From contig JAMPGX010000015.1 in assembly GCA_023663725.1 (NCBI GenBank), forward strand, positions 35,285 through 99,284: 64,000 bases of DNA, read 5' to 3'. This document shows positions 2,260 to 47,093 of this stretch, piece after piece. The stretch comes from a bacterium (GTDB taxonomy: Bacteria; Bacillota; Clostridia; Lachnospirales; Lachnospiraceae). The position numbers were made by a program, and so were the translations under genes. Numbering within the stretch: the first letter of the stretch is position 1; the number at the start of each line of letters is the position of its first letter. The notes under the pieces were generated by a model. It did no database searches. It saw nothing but the letters and a program-made list of their open reading frames with translations, and was not told where the DNA came from.

Positions 2260-4854
2260 ATGAAGAAGGAAAAATCGGTAAGGAATGCAGAAATAAAAGC
2301 TGCAATTGTCAAGCAATTAAAGAGTATGATTGCTCCGGTGGTTATCTTAGCCATTATAGTGGCGGCCGTCTTAGTTGTAGTATATTACAAGAACACGGCG
2401 GAGGAGAAAGAGATAATTCGGATCAATGGCTACGAGGGATCAGATGAGCCTATTGTGTTGGAGAATGATAAGCTGAAACTGACTATGGACCCTCTGACCA
2501 CTCAATTCTCCTTGGAGGTAAAGAGCTCTGGGAAGGTGTGGTATTCCAATCCTCCAGATGCCGCGTCTGATCCGCTTGCGCTGTCTGGTGAAAAGGGGAA
2601 TCTTCAATCTACCCTGTTGATGTCCTACAGCATTGTCTCAGGTCTGGAGTCAAAACTTAACAATTATGACTACAGTATCAAGAATGGCGTATATGAGATA
2701 GAGACTGGAGACGACTATATACGCGTTAATTATTCGATCGGTAATATTGAGAGAGAATATATGATTCCTCCGGTTACGACAGAGGATGACTTCAACGGCT
2801 GGCTTGATGCGATGAGCAAGGAAGCCGTCAATATGGCGAAGCAGTACTATAAAAAGTATGATATCAACAATCTGGGTAAAAAGGATAACAAGGAGGAGCT
2901 GCTTGCAAGTTATCCGATAATGGAGACAGAGGTCATCTATGTGCTCAGAACCAATGCCAGCGCTGCCATAAAGACTAAGCTGGAGGAGTATTTTGAGGAG
3001 GCGGGGTATACTCTTGAGAAGTATGCTGAGGACAAGGAATTAAACCTTGCCGAGAAGTCCTCCAATAAGCCGGTGTTTAATGTGGGTATGACGTACCGTC
3101 TGGTTGGAGATGAGTTTGAGGTCGCGATCAATCTGGCCGATCTGGAATCCAAGGACGAGTATCCTATTTATACATTGACTCCACTTCCCTATTTTGGAGC
3201 TGGTGGAGCGGACGAGGAAGGATTTATTCTGGTTCCCGAGGGCGGCGGTGCGCTGATCAATTTCAATAATGGCAGAACAGCACAGAACAGCTATTATGTC
3301 AATATGTATGGTTGGGATATGGCTCTCGGCCGTAAGTCAGTGGTACATAACACCATGGCGTATTTCAATTGTTATGGCATAGCTCAGGGTGATGATTCTT
3401 TCCTGTGTGTTCTGGAGGAGGGAGCTCCCTATGCTTCCGTACAGGCGGATATCAGCGGGCGCAATAACAGCTATAATACCGCCAGCACTGTGTACAGTGT
3501 GACGCTTCGTGAGCAGTATGAGGTGAGTTCAGTCGCTGACTCTCTGGTCTATGTGTATCTTCCTGAGTTGCCAGATGAGACGCTGACGCAGAGGTATCGG
3601 TTTATCGATTCCGGAAGCTATGTGGATATGGCCAAGGATTATCAGAGTTATCTGAAGGAAAAGCACGGTGATTATCTGACAAGGAATGACGATGTGGAGG
3701 CGCCGGTGGCCCTGACAGTTGTGGGGGCGGTGGATAAGGTGAAGCAGGTGTTGGGTGTTCCTGTTTCCAAGCCATTAAAGCTCACTACCTACAAAGAGGC
3801 GGAGGCAATGATCAGGGAGCTGAAGTCCGAGGGCATGAACAATATGTCGGTAAAGCTTACCGGGTGGTGCAACGGAGGCGTGAATCAGAAGATTCTGAAG
3901 AAGGTGAAGACGATATCTGAGCTGGGCAGTAAAAGAGATATGCAGTCGCTGGCTAACGCAGCCAATGAATTGGGAATAGATCTGTATCTCAACGGCGTCA
4001 CTCAGTATGAATATGACAGCAATATATTTGACGGCTTTTTCTCCTACGCGGATGCGGCGCGATTCATCAGCAAAGAAAGAGCAGAGCTCTTCCAGTACAG
4101 TGCTGTGACTTATGCACAGAGGGAGGGCGCGGACAGCTATTATCTCCTGCATGCGGATCTGGCGGAGAAGATGGCAGATAATCTGGCGGCGGCTGCTGCG
4201 AAATATGGCACAGGGGTATCCTTTGAGGATCTGGGAATGGATCTGTCGGCGGATTATTATGAGAAGGATATGGTCAGCAGGCAGGCTGCCAAAGAGAGGC
4301 ATGAGGCAAGGCTTAAAGCGTTGGCGGATGCAGATGTCAATATCATGATCAACATGGGAAATGAATATGCCGGCGTTTACAGCGATATGATCACAAACAT
4401 GGATCTGAGCGGCAGTGAATATACGATACTGGATGCCTTTGTTCCGTTCTATCAGTTGGCGATGCACGGTTATGTCAATTATACTGGGAGGGCATTGAAT
4501 GTCTGCGGCAATGAGGAGGAGGAGCTGCTCTACTCAGCTGCATATGGAGCAGGCCTGCATTTCTCTCTGATGAGGGAGACGGCGTTTGCTCTTCAGAAGA
4601 CGCTCTATACACAGTATTATGGCTCTGATTATGCGGCCTGGCATGACAGGATGATGGAGATTTATACGAGATACAATGCGGAGCTGGGACATACGTTCAA
4701 TCAGGAGATGACGGGACATGAGTATATTACTCCAAGTCTGTCCTGTACCACATATGAGGATGGCACAAGGGTGTATGTGAACTTCAGCTATGAGGATATT
4801 GCAGCGCCGGATGGCGTGAATGTACCCGCAAGAGATTATAAAGTTGTCAGGTAA
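2260..4854 (+). CDS. DUF5696-like membrane-anchored protein
   Basis: An 864-residue protein with a basic N-terminus and a single transmembrane helix at about residues 25-43 (APVVILAIIVAAVLVVVYY), then a very large extracytoplasmic part. The first half is beta-rich. From about residue 490 the protein looks like an alpha/beta barrel related to glycoside-hydrolase folds, with segments such as NMSVKLTGWCNGG, LGIDLYLNGVTQYEYD and VSFEDLGMDLSADYY. The size and the position between a YIP1-like gene and sugar ABC permease genes fit the DUF5696 family. No catalytic residues can be assigned with confidence. A role in binding or cleaving an extracellular glycan for the downstream transporter is plausible. 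A GAGG ribosome site precedes the ATG. Confidence 0.65.
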   Translation: MKKEKSVRNAEIKAAIVKQLKSMIAPVVILAIIVAAVLVVVYYKNTAEEKEIIRINGYEGSDEPIVLENDKLKLTMDPLTTQFSLEVKSSGKVWYSNPPDAASDPLALSGEKGNLQSTLLMSYSIVSGLESKLNNYDYSIKNGVYEIETGDDYIRVNYSIGNIEREYMIPPVTTEDDFNGWLDAMSKEAVNMAKQYYKKYDINNLGKKDNKEELLASYPIMETEVIYVLRTNASAAIKTKLEEYFEEAGYTLEKYAEDKELNLAEKSSNKPVFNVGMTYRLVGDEFEVAINLADLESKDEYPIYTLTPLPYFGAGGADEEGFILVPEGGGALINFNNGRTAQNSYYVNMYGWDMALGRKSVVHNTMAYFNCYGIAQGDDSFLCVLEEGAPYASVQADISGRNNSYNTASTVYSVTLREQYEVSSVADSLVYVYLPELPDETLTQRYRFIDSGSYVDMAKDYQSYLKEKHGDYLTRNDDVEAPVALTVVGAVDKVKQVLGVPVSKPLKLTTYKEAEAMIRELKSEGMNNMSVKLTGWCNGGVNQKILKKVKTISELGSKRDMQSLANAANELGIDLYLNGVTQYEYDSNIFDGFFSYADAARFISKERAELFQYSAVTYAQREGADSYYLLHADLAEKMADNLAAAAAKYGTGVSFEDLGMDLSADYYEKDMVSRQAAKERHEARLKALADADVNIMINMGNEYAGVYSDMITNMDLSGSEYTILDAFVPFYQLAMHGYVNYTGRALNVCGNEEEELLYSAAYGAGLHFSLMRETAFALQKTLYTQYYGSDYAAWHDRMMEIYTRYNAELGHTFNQEMTGHEYITPSLSCTTYEDGTRVYVNFSYEDIAAPDGVNVPARDYKVVR

Positions 4855-44003: not shown

Positions 44004-46105
44004 AGGGAAGGGAATTGGTATTTGGACTGGATATCGGCACCAGGAGCATCGTGGGAACGGTGGGATATAAGGACGGCACCCGCTTTCATGTGGTGGCGCA
44101 GCGGGAGAAGGAGCATGAGACCAGAGCGATGCTGGACGGACAGATTCACGATATCGGTAAGGTGGGCGCTACGATTGCCGAGGTGAAGAATTTGTTGGAG
44201 CGAGACCTGGGGAAAAAGCTGACGCAGGTGTGCATTGCGGCAGCAGGTCGGGTGCTGCGGACAGTGACTACCTTTGCAGAGTACACCTACGGTATGGAAA
44301 AGGAACTGAGCAGTGAGGATGTCTATGCGTTGGACACCATGGGAGTGGAGCAGGCCTACGAGGAGTTTACCAGAGACAATGACACGGATATGCAGTTCTA
44401 CTGTGTGGGTTACACAGCCATGCGCTATTACCTGAACGGCTATCCCATAGGCAATCTGGAGGGACATAAGGCCAGGACCGCGGGGGTGGATCTGATTGCC
44501 ACATTTCTGCCGGATGATGTCGTGGATGGTCTGTACAAGGCGGTAGGAGCCGCCGGTTTGCAGGTGATGAACCTGACGCTGGAGCCCATTGCGGCCATCC
44601 AGGTAGCCATACCGGAGAAGTTTCGGATGCTGAATTTGGCTCTGGTGGACGTGGGAGCGGGAACCAGCGATATCTCCATCACCAGGGAGGGAACGATCAC
44701 CGCCTATGGTATGATCCCCATCGCCGGAGACAGCCTGACCGAGATACTGGTACAGCACTGTCTGGTAGATTTTGAGACGGCGGAGCAGATCAAGCGCAGG
44801 ATTGGCGTGGAGGAAAATATAGATTACGCGGATATTCTGGGACTGCCACAGTCCATCAGCACACAGCAGGCCCTGGAGCTGTTGCAGGATAATATTCAGC
44901 GGATGACCAAAGAGGTGGCGGACTGCATTCGGGAGCTGAACGGGGAGAAGCCGGTCAGCGCGGTGTTTGTCGTGGGCGGCGGCGGCATGATTCCCGGCTA
45001 TACTCAGGCGTTGGCGCAGCAGCTCGGCATAGCCGCGGAGCGGGTGGCCATAAGGGGACAGGAGGTCATGCAGGCCATCAGCTTTGACATGGAGAATGCC
45101 CGCAAGGATTCTCTGATGGTGACACCGATCGGTATCTGCTTAAGCTATTATGAACAGAGCAATAACTTCATCTTTGTGGGATTTAATGATCAGCGGGTAA
45201 AGCTCTATGACAACGGCCGCCTGTCCGTGGTGGAGGCCGCTATCGCCGCGGGATTTCCCAATGAAAACCTGTTTCCCCGGCGGGGGGAGGCCGTGGAGTT
45301 TACCGTGGATGGCAAGAGTCGCATGGTCAGAGGCGAGCAGGGGGAGGCCGCAGTGATCACGGTAAACGGGCAGGAGGCGGATATCCATACCCGTGTCCAG
45401 AGTGGGGACAAGGTGGTGTTAGTGCCCTCCACGGCGGGCGAAGCGGCTCATCCGCTGCTGGAAAAGCTGCCTGAGATGGCCTCCCAGCTACATATCCAGA
45501 TAAACGGCATCCAGATCGTGCTGCCTCAGTTGGCCTATGTGAACGGGCAGCAGCAGATGGGCTCTTATGAGATTCAGAACGGGGACGAGATTTGTATCCA
45601 GAATTGGTACACGGCGGAGCAGGTGGCCCAGTATGCCGACATTCCCGTGCAGGGCAGGATACTGGTCAACGACACTCCGGCCAAAGCGAATACCAGAGTA
45701 TACGAGGGATTTGATATAAAATTTGAGCCGGAGGAAGACATGGCGTCGGAAGACTTGGAGGAGGAGTATGCCGAAGATTCGGATATGGACGGGTATGGCG
45801 AAGAGTCAGACGAGGATGAGGAGTATATCGCGCCTCAGCTGGCACATACTGCGGGCGTCAGAGAGTCAGGCAGGAAAGAGGAGCCCAAGCCTAAGATAGA
45901 GAGCAGTTTGCAGGTGACGGTGAACGGGCAGAGCGTAACGCTGCGGGGCAAGGAACAGTATGTCTTTGTGGATGTCTTTGACTTTATCGAGTTCGATCTG
46001 GGAGATTCCAGAGGGAGGAGCATAGTGACCCTGCTCAACGGCAGACCGGCGAGGCATATGGAGGCGCTGCACGGAGGAGATGTGATCGACATCCATTGGA
46101 ACTAA
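43991..46105 (+). CDS. FtsA/PilM-like actin-fold ATPase with extended C-terminus
   Basis: A 704-residue protein. Residues 8-390 are an actin/FtsA fold: V-F-G-L-D-I-G-T-R-S-I-V-G-T phosphate-1 loop, L-A-L-V-D-V-G-A-G-T-S-D-I-S phosphate-2 loop and F-V-V-G-G-G-G-M-I-P adenosine motif. The rest is unlike standard FtsA (about 420 residues). Repeated beta-grasp-like units (FTVDGKSRMVRGEQGEA, IQINGIQIVLPQLAYVNG, LQVTVNGQSVTLRG, in part) surround an acidic stretch at about residues 575-615. No amphipathic membrane-targeting helix is obvious at the end. It is a cell-division or pilus-type ATPase by fold; the role of the tail is unknown. Confidence 0.8.
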   Translation: MAAVEGRELVFGLDIGTRSIVGTVGYKDGTRFHVVAQREKEHETRAMLDGQIHDIGKVGATIAEVKNLLERDLGKKLTQVCIAAAGRVLRTVTTFAEYTYGMEKELSSEDVYALDTMGVEQAYEEFTRDNDTDMQFYCVGYTAMRYYLNGYPIGNLEGHKARTAGVDLIATFLPDDVVDGLYKAVGAAGLQVMNLTLEPIAAIQVAIPEKFRMLNLALVDVGAGTSDISITREGTITAYGMIPIAGDSLTEILVQHCLVDFETAEQIKRRIGVEENIDYADILGLPQSISTQQALELLQDNIQRMTKEVADCIRELNGEKPVSAVFVVGGGGMIPGYTQALAQQLGIAAERVAIRGQEVMQAISFDMENARKDSLMVTPIGICLSYYEQSNNFIFVGFNDQRVKLYDNGRLSVVEAAIAAGFPNENLFPRRGEAVEFTVDGKSRMVRGEQGEAAVITVNGQEADIHTRVQSGDKVVLVPSTAGEAAHPLLEKLPEMASQLHIQINGIQIVLPQLAYVNGQQQMGSYEIQNGDEICIQNWYTAEQVAQYADIPVQGRILVNDTPAKANTRVYEGFDIKFEPEEDMASEDLEEEYAEDSDMDGYGEESDEDEEYIAPQLAHTAGVRESGRKEEPKPKIESSLQVTVNGQSVTLRGKEQYVFVDVFDFIEFDLGDSRGRSIVTLLNGRPARHMEALHGGDVIDIHWN

Positions 46106-46122
46106 AGCCGGTGGCGGGATTG

Positions 46123-46151
46123 TTGACTTATTTGGAAACGCTTGATATAAT
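46123..46151 (+). promoter_or_regulatory. strong promoter for the small hydrophobic peptide
   Basis: TTGACT, a 17-base spacer and TATAAT (46146-46151) fit sigma-A consensus in 11 of 12 positions. The predicted transcript starts near 46158, at the edge of the left inverted-repeat arm, and leads into the 32-residue peptide gene. Confidence 0.75.
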
Positions 46152-46160
46152 ACCGTTATG

Positions 46161-46189
46161 GGTACTACCATAACGGTAGGCGGTTAGTC
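46161..46189 (+). repeat. left arm of inverted repeat flanking the peptide cassette
   Basis: GGTACTACC and CGGTTAGTC at the ends of this 29-base segment recur inverted at 46414-46437. The central bases differ between arms. A second dyad, CGGAGG/CCTCCG (46196-46201 with 46209-46214), follows in the 5' leader. Confidence 0.75.
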
Positions 46190-46263
46190 TTTCTACGGAG
46201 GACTGTGACCTCCGATTACATAGAAATCTGCTTGCAGAAATTGTGGATCAGGAGGAATTGCAT

Positions 46264-46362
46264 ATGCTCACCATCGAAAGCTTAATTGCAGTTATAAGCT
46301 TGTGCCTGACTTGCTTTGGTCTTGGCTATTCGATTGGTAGGAATAGCAAGACACAAAAATAA
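46264..46362 (+). CDS. putative holin-like/type I toxin peptide, 32 residues
   Basis: A 33-codon gene with ATCAGGAGG eight bases before its ATG. The product opens M-L-T-I-E-S-L-I-A-V, has one hydrophobic helix with two Cys (residues 4-22) and ends in a short basic tail G-R-N-S-K-T-Q-K. This fits the holin-like toxin family related to TxpA-type peptides, which insert in the membrane and are silenced by an antisense RNA. It has its own promoter, an opposing promoter downstream, and sits between inverted repeats. The membrane peptide is visible; toxicity is inferred from family and layout. Confidence 0.75.
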   Translation: MLTIESLIAVISLCLTCFGLGYSIGRNSKTQK

Positions 46363-46396
46363 CCGCCCAAGCCTCGCAAACTTAGCGGTTACTTTT
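46361..46396. terminator. bidirectional terminator between peptide gene and antisense RNA
   Basis: The stem AACCGC (46361-46366) with GCGGTT (46385-46390) is followed by ACTTTT on the + strand and ATTTTT on the - strand. It could end both convergent transcripts, leaving an overlap confined to the 3' ends. Confidence 0.6.
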
Positions 46397-46413
46397 GAAT
46401 CACTATAAATGCG

Positions 46414-46437
46414 GACTAACCGTCTATCGGTAGTACC
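46414..46437 (-). repeat. right arm of inverted repeat flanking the peptide cassette
   Basis: This arm reads, on the minus strand, GGTACTACC, six unmatched bases, then CGGTTAGTC, the inverse of the arm at 46161-46189. The two arms enclose the entire sense gene and most of the predicted antisense RNA. Confidence 0.75.
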
Positions 46438-46449
46438 TTTTATAATGTT

Positions 46450-46478
46450 ATCTTACCACCTGCTTGCCAATATGTCAA
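46450..46478 (-). promoter_or_regulatory. antisense promoter opposite the peptide gene
   Basis: On the minus strand: TTGACA (46478-46473), a 17-base spacer, TAAGAT (46455-46450). It points toward the peptide gene and is the proposed promoter of the antisense RNA. There is no minus-strand protein gene it could serve before the FtsA/PilM-like gene. Confidence 0.65.
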
Positions 46479-46512
46479 ATTTTTTATTGCAAACTTTTGC
46501 TAGGAGATATTT

Positions 46513-46954
46513 ATGTGTTTGGAAATCAAGAAACTTAGTATAGGCGACGGACGTGACATCTACGAAATGTTGCAGGAATTACCTTCAGAAGAAAATGGAT
46601 TTATCAATTCGGTAAACGGCAAAACTTTTGACGAGTACAGGGAATGGTTAAAAAAGTCAGCTCAAAGTTCTGAGCAGGTTGGCGTCGTGGACGGATGGAA
46701 GGTTCCAGAAACTATTTATTGGTTTTATGAGAATAACAGGCCAGTAGGTTTTGGCAAAGTACGGCATTTTTTGACAGATGCTTTACTGGAAAATATTATC
46801 CTCTTTGATTGTTGAGAGTAAAGAAATTGGTGTAGCCAAATTGCTGCTCACTATCCGAAATTATAATATACCGTCTATCCATGTCGCATTGGCAAATGGC
46901 GGTAAAATAGAAAAGATCACGGCAGACAGACACTATATCTGGATTGAGCCATAG
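46513..46954 (+). pseudogene. GNAT acetyltransferase with internal deletion and frameshift
   Basis: The first frame (46513 to about 46800) gives a normal GNAT N-terminal half, ending in I-Y-W-F-Y-E-N-N-R-P-V-G-F-G-K-V-R-H-F-L-T-D-A-L-L-E (listed by letters). It then shifts frame. The other frame continues with S-L-I-V-E-S-K-E-I-G-V-A-K-L-L-L-T and ends A-N-G-G-K-I-E-K-I-T-A-D-R-H-Y-I-W-I to TAG at 46952. The family segment between, which holds the acetyl-CoA loop R-x-x-G-x-G, is absent. The loss is several tens of bases and not a multiple of three. The product cannot be an active acetyltransferase. Confidence 0.75.
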
Positions 46955-47093
46955 CGTCCAATTGACCGGACGGTTTTTGGCAATAGCAAATGCCATTTTG
47001 AGAAACAGTGATTAACAGACACTACAGGGAAAAGGGCATTGACAGAACAGACGGAAGGGGACGGGGCGAAGCTTCCCCGTGTATGGAAGAGAT

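Follow-up and report, generated by a model that had tools for sequence, protein, structure and literature searches.

A 64,000 nt stretch of a Lachnospiraceae genome (GenBank assembly GCA_023663725.1, contig JAMPGX010000015.1, positions 35,285 to 99,284), hereafter the window, contains at positions 46123-46478 a small cassette of a real, widespread family, most likely of type I toxin-antitoxin loci, with an unusual and testable architecture of inverted-repeat arms. The probable products of the cassette are a peptide that damages membranes and, opposing it, a small RNA by which its synthesis is silenced. The designation of the cassette as a type I toxin-antitoxin module, first made in an earlier reading of the sequence alone (the original prediction), is judged very probably correct on the basis of a conserved antisense promoter, coding constraint on the peptide and the finding that one relative has a Hol_Tox peptide within this RNA frame. 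The explanation that best accounts for the data as a whole, with a probability of roughly 0.6, is a chromosomal type I module whose family is absent from the searched libraries and whose antitoxin would act through the arms. That the arms are used in a competition between the toxin leader and the antitoxin for the 3' arm, as modelled below, is given somewhat less than an even chance.

Organisation of the cassette

The sense promoter, ribosome site, 32-residue one-helix peptide, two-way terminator and antisense promoter described in the original prediction are all in place. On the forward strand, the toxin promoter (TTGACT-17-TATAAT, 46123-46151, with TTGACT at 46123-46128 and TATAAT at 46146-46151) is followed by the 5' arm, consisting of an outer block, GGTACTACC (46161-46169), and a core, GGTAGGCGGTTAGTC (46175-46189), which is near-invariant in 152 copies that were themselves chosen with a pattern for this core stretch. 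The leader continues with strand 1, UUAGUCUUUC (46184-46193), the putative anti-Shine-Dalgarno strand of the family, which can also pair with strand 2 of the hairpin H2 (CGGAGG-ACTGTGA-CCTCCG, 46196-46214); the 3' strand of H2 is in turn able to pair, as ACCTCC, with the Shine-Dalgarno (SD) sequence, AGGAGG (46250-46255). Between these lies a further hairpin, H3 (TCTGC-TT-GCAGA, 46227-46238), identified by eye and absent from the RNAalifold consensus. The predicted toxin, MLTIESLIAVISLCLTCFGLGYSIGRNSKTQK (46264-46362, ATG at 46264 and TAA at 46360-46362), has a single hydrophobic stretch.

Overlapping the last part of the peptide's frame, stop codon included, is T1 (46355-46396), a terminator hairpin usable from both sides (TAACCGC/GCGGTTA, 46360-46366 and 46385-46391), which is bordered by TTTT at 46393-46396 in the sense direction, a weak run in this copy (ACTTTTG), and by TTTTT, the complement of 46355-46359, in the antisense direction. 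Beyond it on the forward strand are the core of the 3' arm, GACTAACCGTCTATC (46414-46428), its outer block, GGTAGTACC (46429-46437), and, immediately 3' of the arm, a T-run (46438-46441). The antitoxin promoter on the reverse strand (TTGACA-17-TAAGAT, 46450-46478) is the complement of 46473-46478 (TTGACA) and 46450-46455 (TAAGAT). The predicted antitoxin, placed from this promoter and T1, is a reverse-strand RNA of approximately 92 nt (46352-46443) that reads GGTACTACCGATAGACGGTTAGTCC after its first few bases.

A repeat search returned the arms as an inverted pair, 46171-46189 and 46414-46432 (19 nt, 84%), and found no direct repeat family in 45900-46700. The inverted repeats had originally been described as enclosing the whole cassette; both promoters lie outside the arms, which therefore enclose the RNAs rather than the cassette.

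A family of related elements

The host genome harbours three copies of the element, one in the window and one each on contigs C33 and C22. These other two copies are 67-83% identical to that in the window over the aligned pieces. The C22 copy (L004:1450-1760) has undergone an internal deletion of the start codon and the N-terminal part of the peptide, with both arms and T1 retained; its promoter regions are also visible by eye, and this decayed copy may be an orphan antitoxin.

Among 299 genomes sampled from the host's family, 91 (approximately 30%) have a match at E<=1e-5, the host itself being counted. Lachnospiraceae rank among the major bacteria of the gut, and a module at this frequency in the sampled genomes would represent a large missed class. 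A leader RNA model, R1, built from 38 sequences and applied with strict filters at a threshold of E<=1e-4 to partly overlapping draws of genomes, matched 25 of 246 genomes from the order (20 in the same family, including the host, and five in other families), 11 of 341 from the class (two of them outside the order) and four of 299 from the phylum (one outside the class). At least 120 matching stretches are found in named genome contigs; among 80 matches listed by title, 40 are Lachnospiraceae, many others come from genera such as Blautia, Roseburia and Butyrivibrio, five are from Phascolarctobacterium, and Mogibacterium and Bacteroides contribute one each. The phage collection contains one matching record, phage-labelled and unannotated, with no gene listed under the match, and the plasmid collection (PLSDB), in which the gene table is incomplete, has two, both from Lachnospira eligens and likewise with no gene listed under the match. 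In viral contigs the strict leader pattern found no match and a looser one six stretches. No Rfam covariance model matched the window or eight relatives at the gathering score, or positions 46100-46500 at E<=1.

The copies compared below derive from 243 matches in 200 of 200 sequences fetched for matching the element, which gave 173 full-length copies, 163 unique cores, 161 with a peptide (two missing), 152 with both arms by pattern (nine dropped) and 151 with an SD. For strand-pairing energies, 148 were parsed and 137 were unique, and the leader alignment used 38 of 42 sequences (L030, L060, L067 and L115 being left out). Two classes were distinguished by pattern: class A, built like the window copy (108), and class B, with a hairpin after the 3' arm (44), a split that misfiles at least L184, a class B copy counted in A, and in which the flank of L026 is cut. 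The layout recurs in the 152 compared copies. These were fetched for matching the element, and recurrence therefore counts only for features outside the fetch and filter criteria, namely the flanking promoters, the codon pattern and the changes in the outer arm block. Judged from these sequences, the window element is one of a family, not a product of chance.

Copies may also be found in tandem or clustered, for instance at L103:2716-3011 and 3189-3487, where two different peptides lie side by side, at L136:1004-1318 and 1997-2312, and in L188, L120, L046 and L069; in some clusters only the 3' part, on the antitoxin side, is present. A near full-length copy lies at L206:4001-4288 on the Lachnospira eligens replicon NC_012780.1, with no gene listed under it in an incomplete gene table.

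Promoters and terminators

Convergent promoters and a shared two-way terminator hairpin are both conserved across copies. In class A, an antisense promoter adjoining the 3' arm scores at least 9/12 in 97% of the 108 copies, against 18% of dinucleotide shuffles, and at least 10/12 in 79%, against 2.7%. The corresponding signal in the 44 class B copies lies beyond the hairpin, where 30% reach at least 10/12 and 57% at least 9/12, as compared with 1% and 13% of shuffles respectively. The sense promoter reaches at least 9/12 in 71% of the 152 copies and 11% of shuffles. The antisense T-run of T1 is present in 140 of the 152.

A second terminator-like signature lies 3' of the 3' arm, which is where a sense RNA containing both arms would end. 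The eight nucleotides following the arm in class A include on average 5.2 T, compared with 3.3 ± 0.12 when shuffled, and at least five T in 87 of 108 copies, whereas in 41 of the 44 class B copies the arm is followed by a hairpin of <=-8 kcal/mol with at least four T in the next eight positions.

Constraint on the peptide and its exchange

The reading frame shows the signature of purifying selection, with a dN/dS of about 0.16 across 1,041 pairs of related copies, which are not independent of one another; in the same pairs third codon positions had accumulated 10,709 changes, against 5,160 and 2,002 at the others. This set was restricted to peptides of 31-34 residues and pairs differing by 8-30%, with the first codon and last five excluded. 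A 19-residue stretch with a hydropathy of at least 1.6 (2.07 in the window peptide) occurs in 159 of 161 peptides, and the same number have at least two lysine or arginine residues among the final ten. The window peptide had no Pfam, PHROGs or NCBIfam family above the cut-off, and a match to PsbN (NCBIfam, E 0.12), below the cut-off, was taken as chance.

Relatives of the window peptide form the main cluster, comprising 134 of 142 distinct peptides. Other membrane peptides are found within the same arms and T1, as judged from 13 inspected loci of the model search, which did not cover all weak matches. These include a cluster of five of the type MSDYEVLSLVLMILGIITSLLISLINHTKK, two of which match Hol_Tox only below the cut-off (E 0.11 and 0.96), and, at one locus each, MVNFSDLFQYTMMIVAVATFAYLLGKRK (L219), MSLDQILQFVIMLTAVAALFYQIGKRK (L212) and MMTVSLEAVYYMVVIASILCGASYKLGYEMGKHTKR (L217). 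At L216 the peptide, MVTYNELFQFGMLIVALITLVVTVMKDKKK, is a Hol_Tox protein (PF16935; 37.1 bits against a cut-off of 23.3, E 2.7e-9), with a similarity to PepG1 (NF041589) of 29.1 bits that falls below the cut-off of 70, and had no match among phages. By these sequence comparisons, the RNA frame can exchange its peptide for different membrane peptides, one of them Hol_Tox; further toxins might thus be found on the same RNA chassis by RNA search rather than protein search. Two distant copies, L223 and L227, have a TTG-started membrane peptide of 37 residues unlike the main family, the start site of which is uncertain, because a different frame, starting at an ATG and preceded by a better SD, begins immediately upstream.

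Co-evolution of the arms

The original observation that both RNAs begin with nearly the same sequence holds for the window and extends across the 152 copies. The arms were compared at 25 positions (16 in the core and nine in the outer block). Outside two core columns, the 5' arm and the antitoxin arm agree in 3,191 of 3,496 cells, as against 2,977 ± 12 when permuted. The two columns themselves have G in the toxin and A in the antitoxin in 141 and 152 of the 152 copies, generating G.U pairs in the sense RNA; as they have stayed different, gene conversion between the arms was set aside as the source of their likeness. The remaining unequal cells comprise 178 that give G.U pairs in the sense strand, 53 that do so only in the antisense strand and 74 that do neither.

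On a tree from which the arms were left out, changes in the two arms fall on the same branch 61 times, whereas 23.7 ± 4.1 would be expected (maximum 37 in 1,000 draws), and 41 of the 61 are to the same base; the outer blocks of the 5' and 3' arms change together, and in an A/G column of this block all eight same-branch changes are concordant. Because these shared changes exceed chance, they speak for arms that pair with each other, beyond what kinship would produce, and co-evolve as a helix in the sense strand. At least ten of the 16 core positions are paired with the 3' side in predicted folds of the long RNA in 140 of 152 copies.

Leader folding and a proposed mechanism

The leader comprises four strands with mutually exclusive pairings: strand 1, located where the 5' arm ends, the two strands of H2 (2 and 3) and the SD. 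Cognate strands are predicted to pair more strongly than permuted partners in the combinations 1:SD, 3:SD, 1:2 and 2:3 (z of -6.1, -10.5, -9.6 and -14.3; 137 copies, kinship uncorrected). In H2, one stem pair is GC in 19 and AU in 17 of the 38 aligned sequences, and three of the 13 consensus pairs have two-sided changes. Approximately 45 extra bases are found in the H2 loop at L070:260-320, where the stem is kept, and extra bases in the same loop of L062 and of L023/L051 were judged from gaps in the matches.

In the 151 copies with an SD, predicted pairing between leader and SD averages 0.43 when the 3' arm is free and 0.67 when it is blocked; freeing the arm lowers it by more than 0.1 in 86 copies and raises it in three. 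In the window copy the value falls from 0.83 to 0.27. The duplex of the antitoxin with the 3' arm (-50.7 kcal/mol) is stronger than the helix in cis in all 152 copies, by a mean of 11.8 kcal/mol, although the sign of this difference follows by construction from the perfect match; that of the antitoxin start with the leader is approximately -23 kcal/mol.

A mechanism can be proposed that builds on the two conserved convergent promoters, the coding frame, T1 with its two T-runs and the co-evolution of the arms, all of which are apparent in the sequences. The sense RNA would encode the one-helix membrane peptide, and the convergent antisense RNA would silence it. The ribosome site would be shut by leader strands, one at the end of the 5' arm and the other being the 3' strand of H2. 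In a sense RNA reaching through the 3' arm, the latter would capture the 5' arm in a 5'-3' helix with two fixed G.U pairs, so that the leader would grip the ribosome site less tightly. Over roughly its first 25 bases the antitoxin is a copy of the toxin's 5' arm, yet its match to the 3' arm is perfect, and because of that match the antitoxin would win the 3' arm; the leader would then shut the ribosome site again, and the duplex would be open to degradation. On this proposal, the inverted orientation of the repeat reflects competition between toxin leader and antitoxin for a single partner. We infer three of the steps: read-through past T1, the sign of the arm effect and the involvement of an RNase.

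There are partial precedents: SR4 binds the 3' end of the bsrG mRNA and lengthens a stem blocking the SD (PMC6562991), and TimR undoes an activating pseudoknot of timP (PMC11228461). An antitoxin that starts with a near-copy of the first bases of the toxin message suggests a new mode of toxin switching. Should this role of the arms be correct, the antisense RNA would act by imitating its target's leader, a logic not met in the literature examined, and the competition should be readily testable by paired mutations. It is put forward only tentatively that this would constitute a new form of type I control, in which the antitoxin, as a near-copy of the toxin leader, silences by outcompeting it for the 3' arm, with the RNA chassis serving Lachnospiraceae and certain other Firmicutes as a portable switch onto which several unrelated membrane peptides have been taken.

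A number of observations weigh against such a mechanism, the principal one being the sense T-run of T1, found in 130 of the 152 copies: much of the toxin RNA may therefore end before the 3' arm. Freeing the 3' arm barely increases the predicted opening of the SD, from 0.247 to 0.285 (28 copies up and nine down by more than 0.1), such that the expectation of a clear opening is borne out only weakly; in the window copy opening is unchanged (0.169 to 0.168), and the SD is covered by the 3' strand of H2 rather than by strand 1 (strand 1:SD pairing of about 0.0001). The energy comparison of the four strands carries no correction for kinship. In class B the zone adjoining the arm has no promoter enrichment (7% against 7% of shuffles at >=9/12), and the copied stretch there is therefore not the antitoxin's very start, while in class A the T-run after the 3' arm doubles as the A-rich start of the antitoxin. 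As regards the arms, the pattern filter on their cores inflates core invariance, the outer block having only been aligned to the consensus; in 20 of the 61 same-branch changes the two arms acquire different bases; and the richness of the arm in G and T by itself shifts the G.U count towards the sense strand where the change is in the antitoxin arm, so that the G.U ratio on its own is only supporting. Finally, in the RNAs of hok and aapA the 5'-3' helix shuts the message and does not open it (PMC6733600).

Alternative explanations

The arms might have no part in such a competition. In a plain 3'-overlapping type I system, the two RNAs would pair at their shared terminator and RNase III would destroy the duplex, the alike 5' ends being protective start hairpins. 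In favour of such a system, most copies have a T-run flanking T1 in either direction, the hairpin loops of the two RNAs are complementary to each other, and RatA acts through 3' pairing and RNase III (PMC6562991); it would leave unexplained the joint changes of the outer blocks on the tree, the sense-strand G.U bias and the terminator signature beyond the 3' arm, and the explanation, while possible, is regarded as doubtful. A lock resembling those of hok and aapA is unlikely. Here the full-length sense RNA would be inert through its 5'-3' helix until shortening, at T1 or by a nuclease, made it translatable, with the antitoxin hitting the short form; long RNAs are indeed predicted to be closed in 140 of 152 copies, and the architecture is known for hok and aapA (PMC6733600), but the partner of the 3' arm is the anti-SD strand of the leader rather than the SD, helix formation lowers the predicted leader:SD pairing, and there would be no clear reason for the antitoxin to resemble the 5' arm. 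To much the same degree, it seems improbable that the antitoxin arm acts directly on the leader, copying the toxin's anti-SD strand and pairing in trans with the SD or strand 2 of H2. The stronger cognate 1:SD and 1:2 duplexes (z of -6.1 and -9.6, kinship not removed) and the approximately -23 kcal/mol between antitoxin start and leader would fit this action; however, that pairing is far weaker than the antitoxin's with the 3' arm, and the concordant changes of the outer block, eight of eight in the A/G column, would be unexplained.

Two further explanations were considered. That the element is merely the structured leader of a small, harmless membrane protein, which it would control, with no toxin function involved, is a slim possibility: the window peptide has no library match above cut-off and its toxicity is a prediction, but the antisense promoter is conserved and the peptide is exchanged for Hol_Tox in the same frame. 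Slimmer still is the chance that the element is a small mobile cassette with the inverted repeats as its ends, similar to a Miniature Inverted-repeat Transposable Element (MITE). Such a cassette would account for the inverted arms, the three copies in the host genome, the clustering of some copies and the position of the window copy inside an insertion of about 1 kb between genes adjacent in relatives. The suggestion, raised in the original prediction, that the arms might confer mobility is nevertheless not supported: conservation extends beyond the arms to the promoters, the copies in the host's own genome have diverged from that in the window to the extent given above, and no flanking target repeat was seen by eye. 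A MITE or other transposable cassette was set aside, and the conserved unit does not end at the inverted repeats; two arm columns differ in nearly all copies, unlike transposon ends, and by sequence the arms do not look like such ends.

Comparison with known type I systems

Among known systems, the layout nearest to that of the type I module proposed here is par/Fst (par of pAD1, RNA I/RNA II), which has convergent promoters, a shared two-way terminator, a 33-residue toxin, and leader structures hiding the SD and the 5' end (PMC7472228). It differs in that direct repeats make its RNAs complementary, whereas in the window element and the 152 copies inverted repeats make the RNA starts alike, and in the PXXXG motif described there, which is absent from the window peptide, a sequence without proline. 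The txpA/RatA, bsrG/SR4 and bsrE/SR5 pairs of Bacillus subtilis similarly encode short membrane toxins, but their two RNAs have 100-140 bp in common and their antitoxins are 163-222 nt long (PMC6562991); the predicted antitoxin in the window, at about 92 nt, would overlap its target by only about 45 nt unless the sense RNA passes T1. The match to TxpA/RatA-type loci drawn in the original prediction thus stands for the convergent, 3'-overlapping layout, but not for membership of that group, given the lack of a profile match and the longer shared stretch of the B. subtilis pairs.

Hol_Tox and PepG1 (PF16935 and NF041589) are linked to the family through the Hol_Tox peptide at L216, in the same RNA frame, while the window peptide has no match. 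In common with hok and aapA, the ends of the toxin message are predicted to pair, but the helix of those systems hides the SD (PMC6733600), and in the present element it is the anti-SD strand that the 3' arm would take. The mutually exclusive folds of the toxin RNA in timPR, with an antitoxin that undoes the active one, resemble the proposed mechanism; the difference is that the pseudoknot lies within the message, and the part of PMC11228461 examined mentions no copied leader. A term search of a review of type I systems in Clostridia (PMC6563280) gave no occurrence of Lachnospir-, Roseburia, Blautia or inverted repeat, and no published type I toxin-antitoxin system in Lachnospiraceae, or description of this family, was found among the listed titles and abstract starts of openly licensed literature.

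Genomic site of the window copy

The cassette lies between an FtsA-like gene and a metallo-beta-lactamase-fold gene, both named from Pfam. Seventeen same-genus loci were fetched with the downstream gene, of which one was the window itself, three had no upstream FtsA-like match and three matched that gene only in part; in the other 10 the two genes are separated by 0-88 bp, as compared with 976 bp in the window. As these genes are adjacent in relatives and about 1 kb apart here, the cassette was probably gained at this site, though not evidently by means of its own ends. Within the same insertion, at 46513-46960, lies an open frame of 100 aa, the first piece of which has no Pfam match, followed by an apparent continuation in another frame; by eye, this resembles a broken acetyltransferase-like gene.
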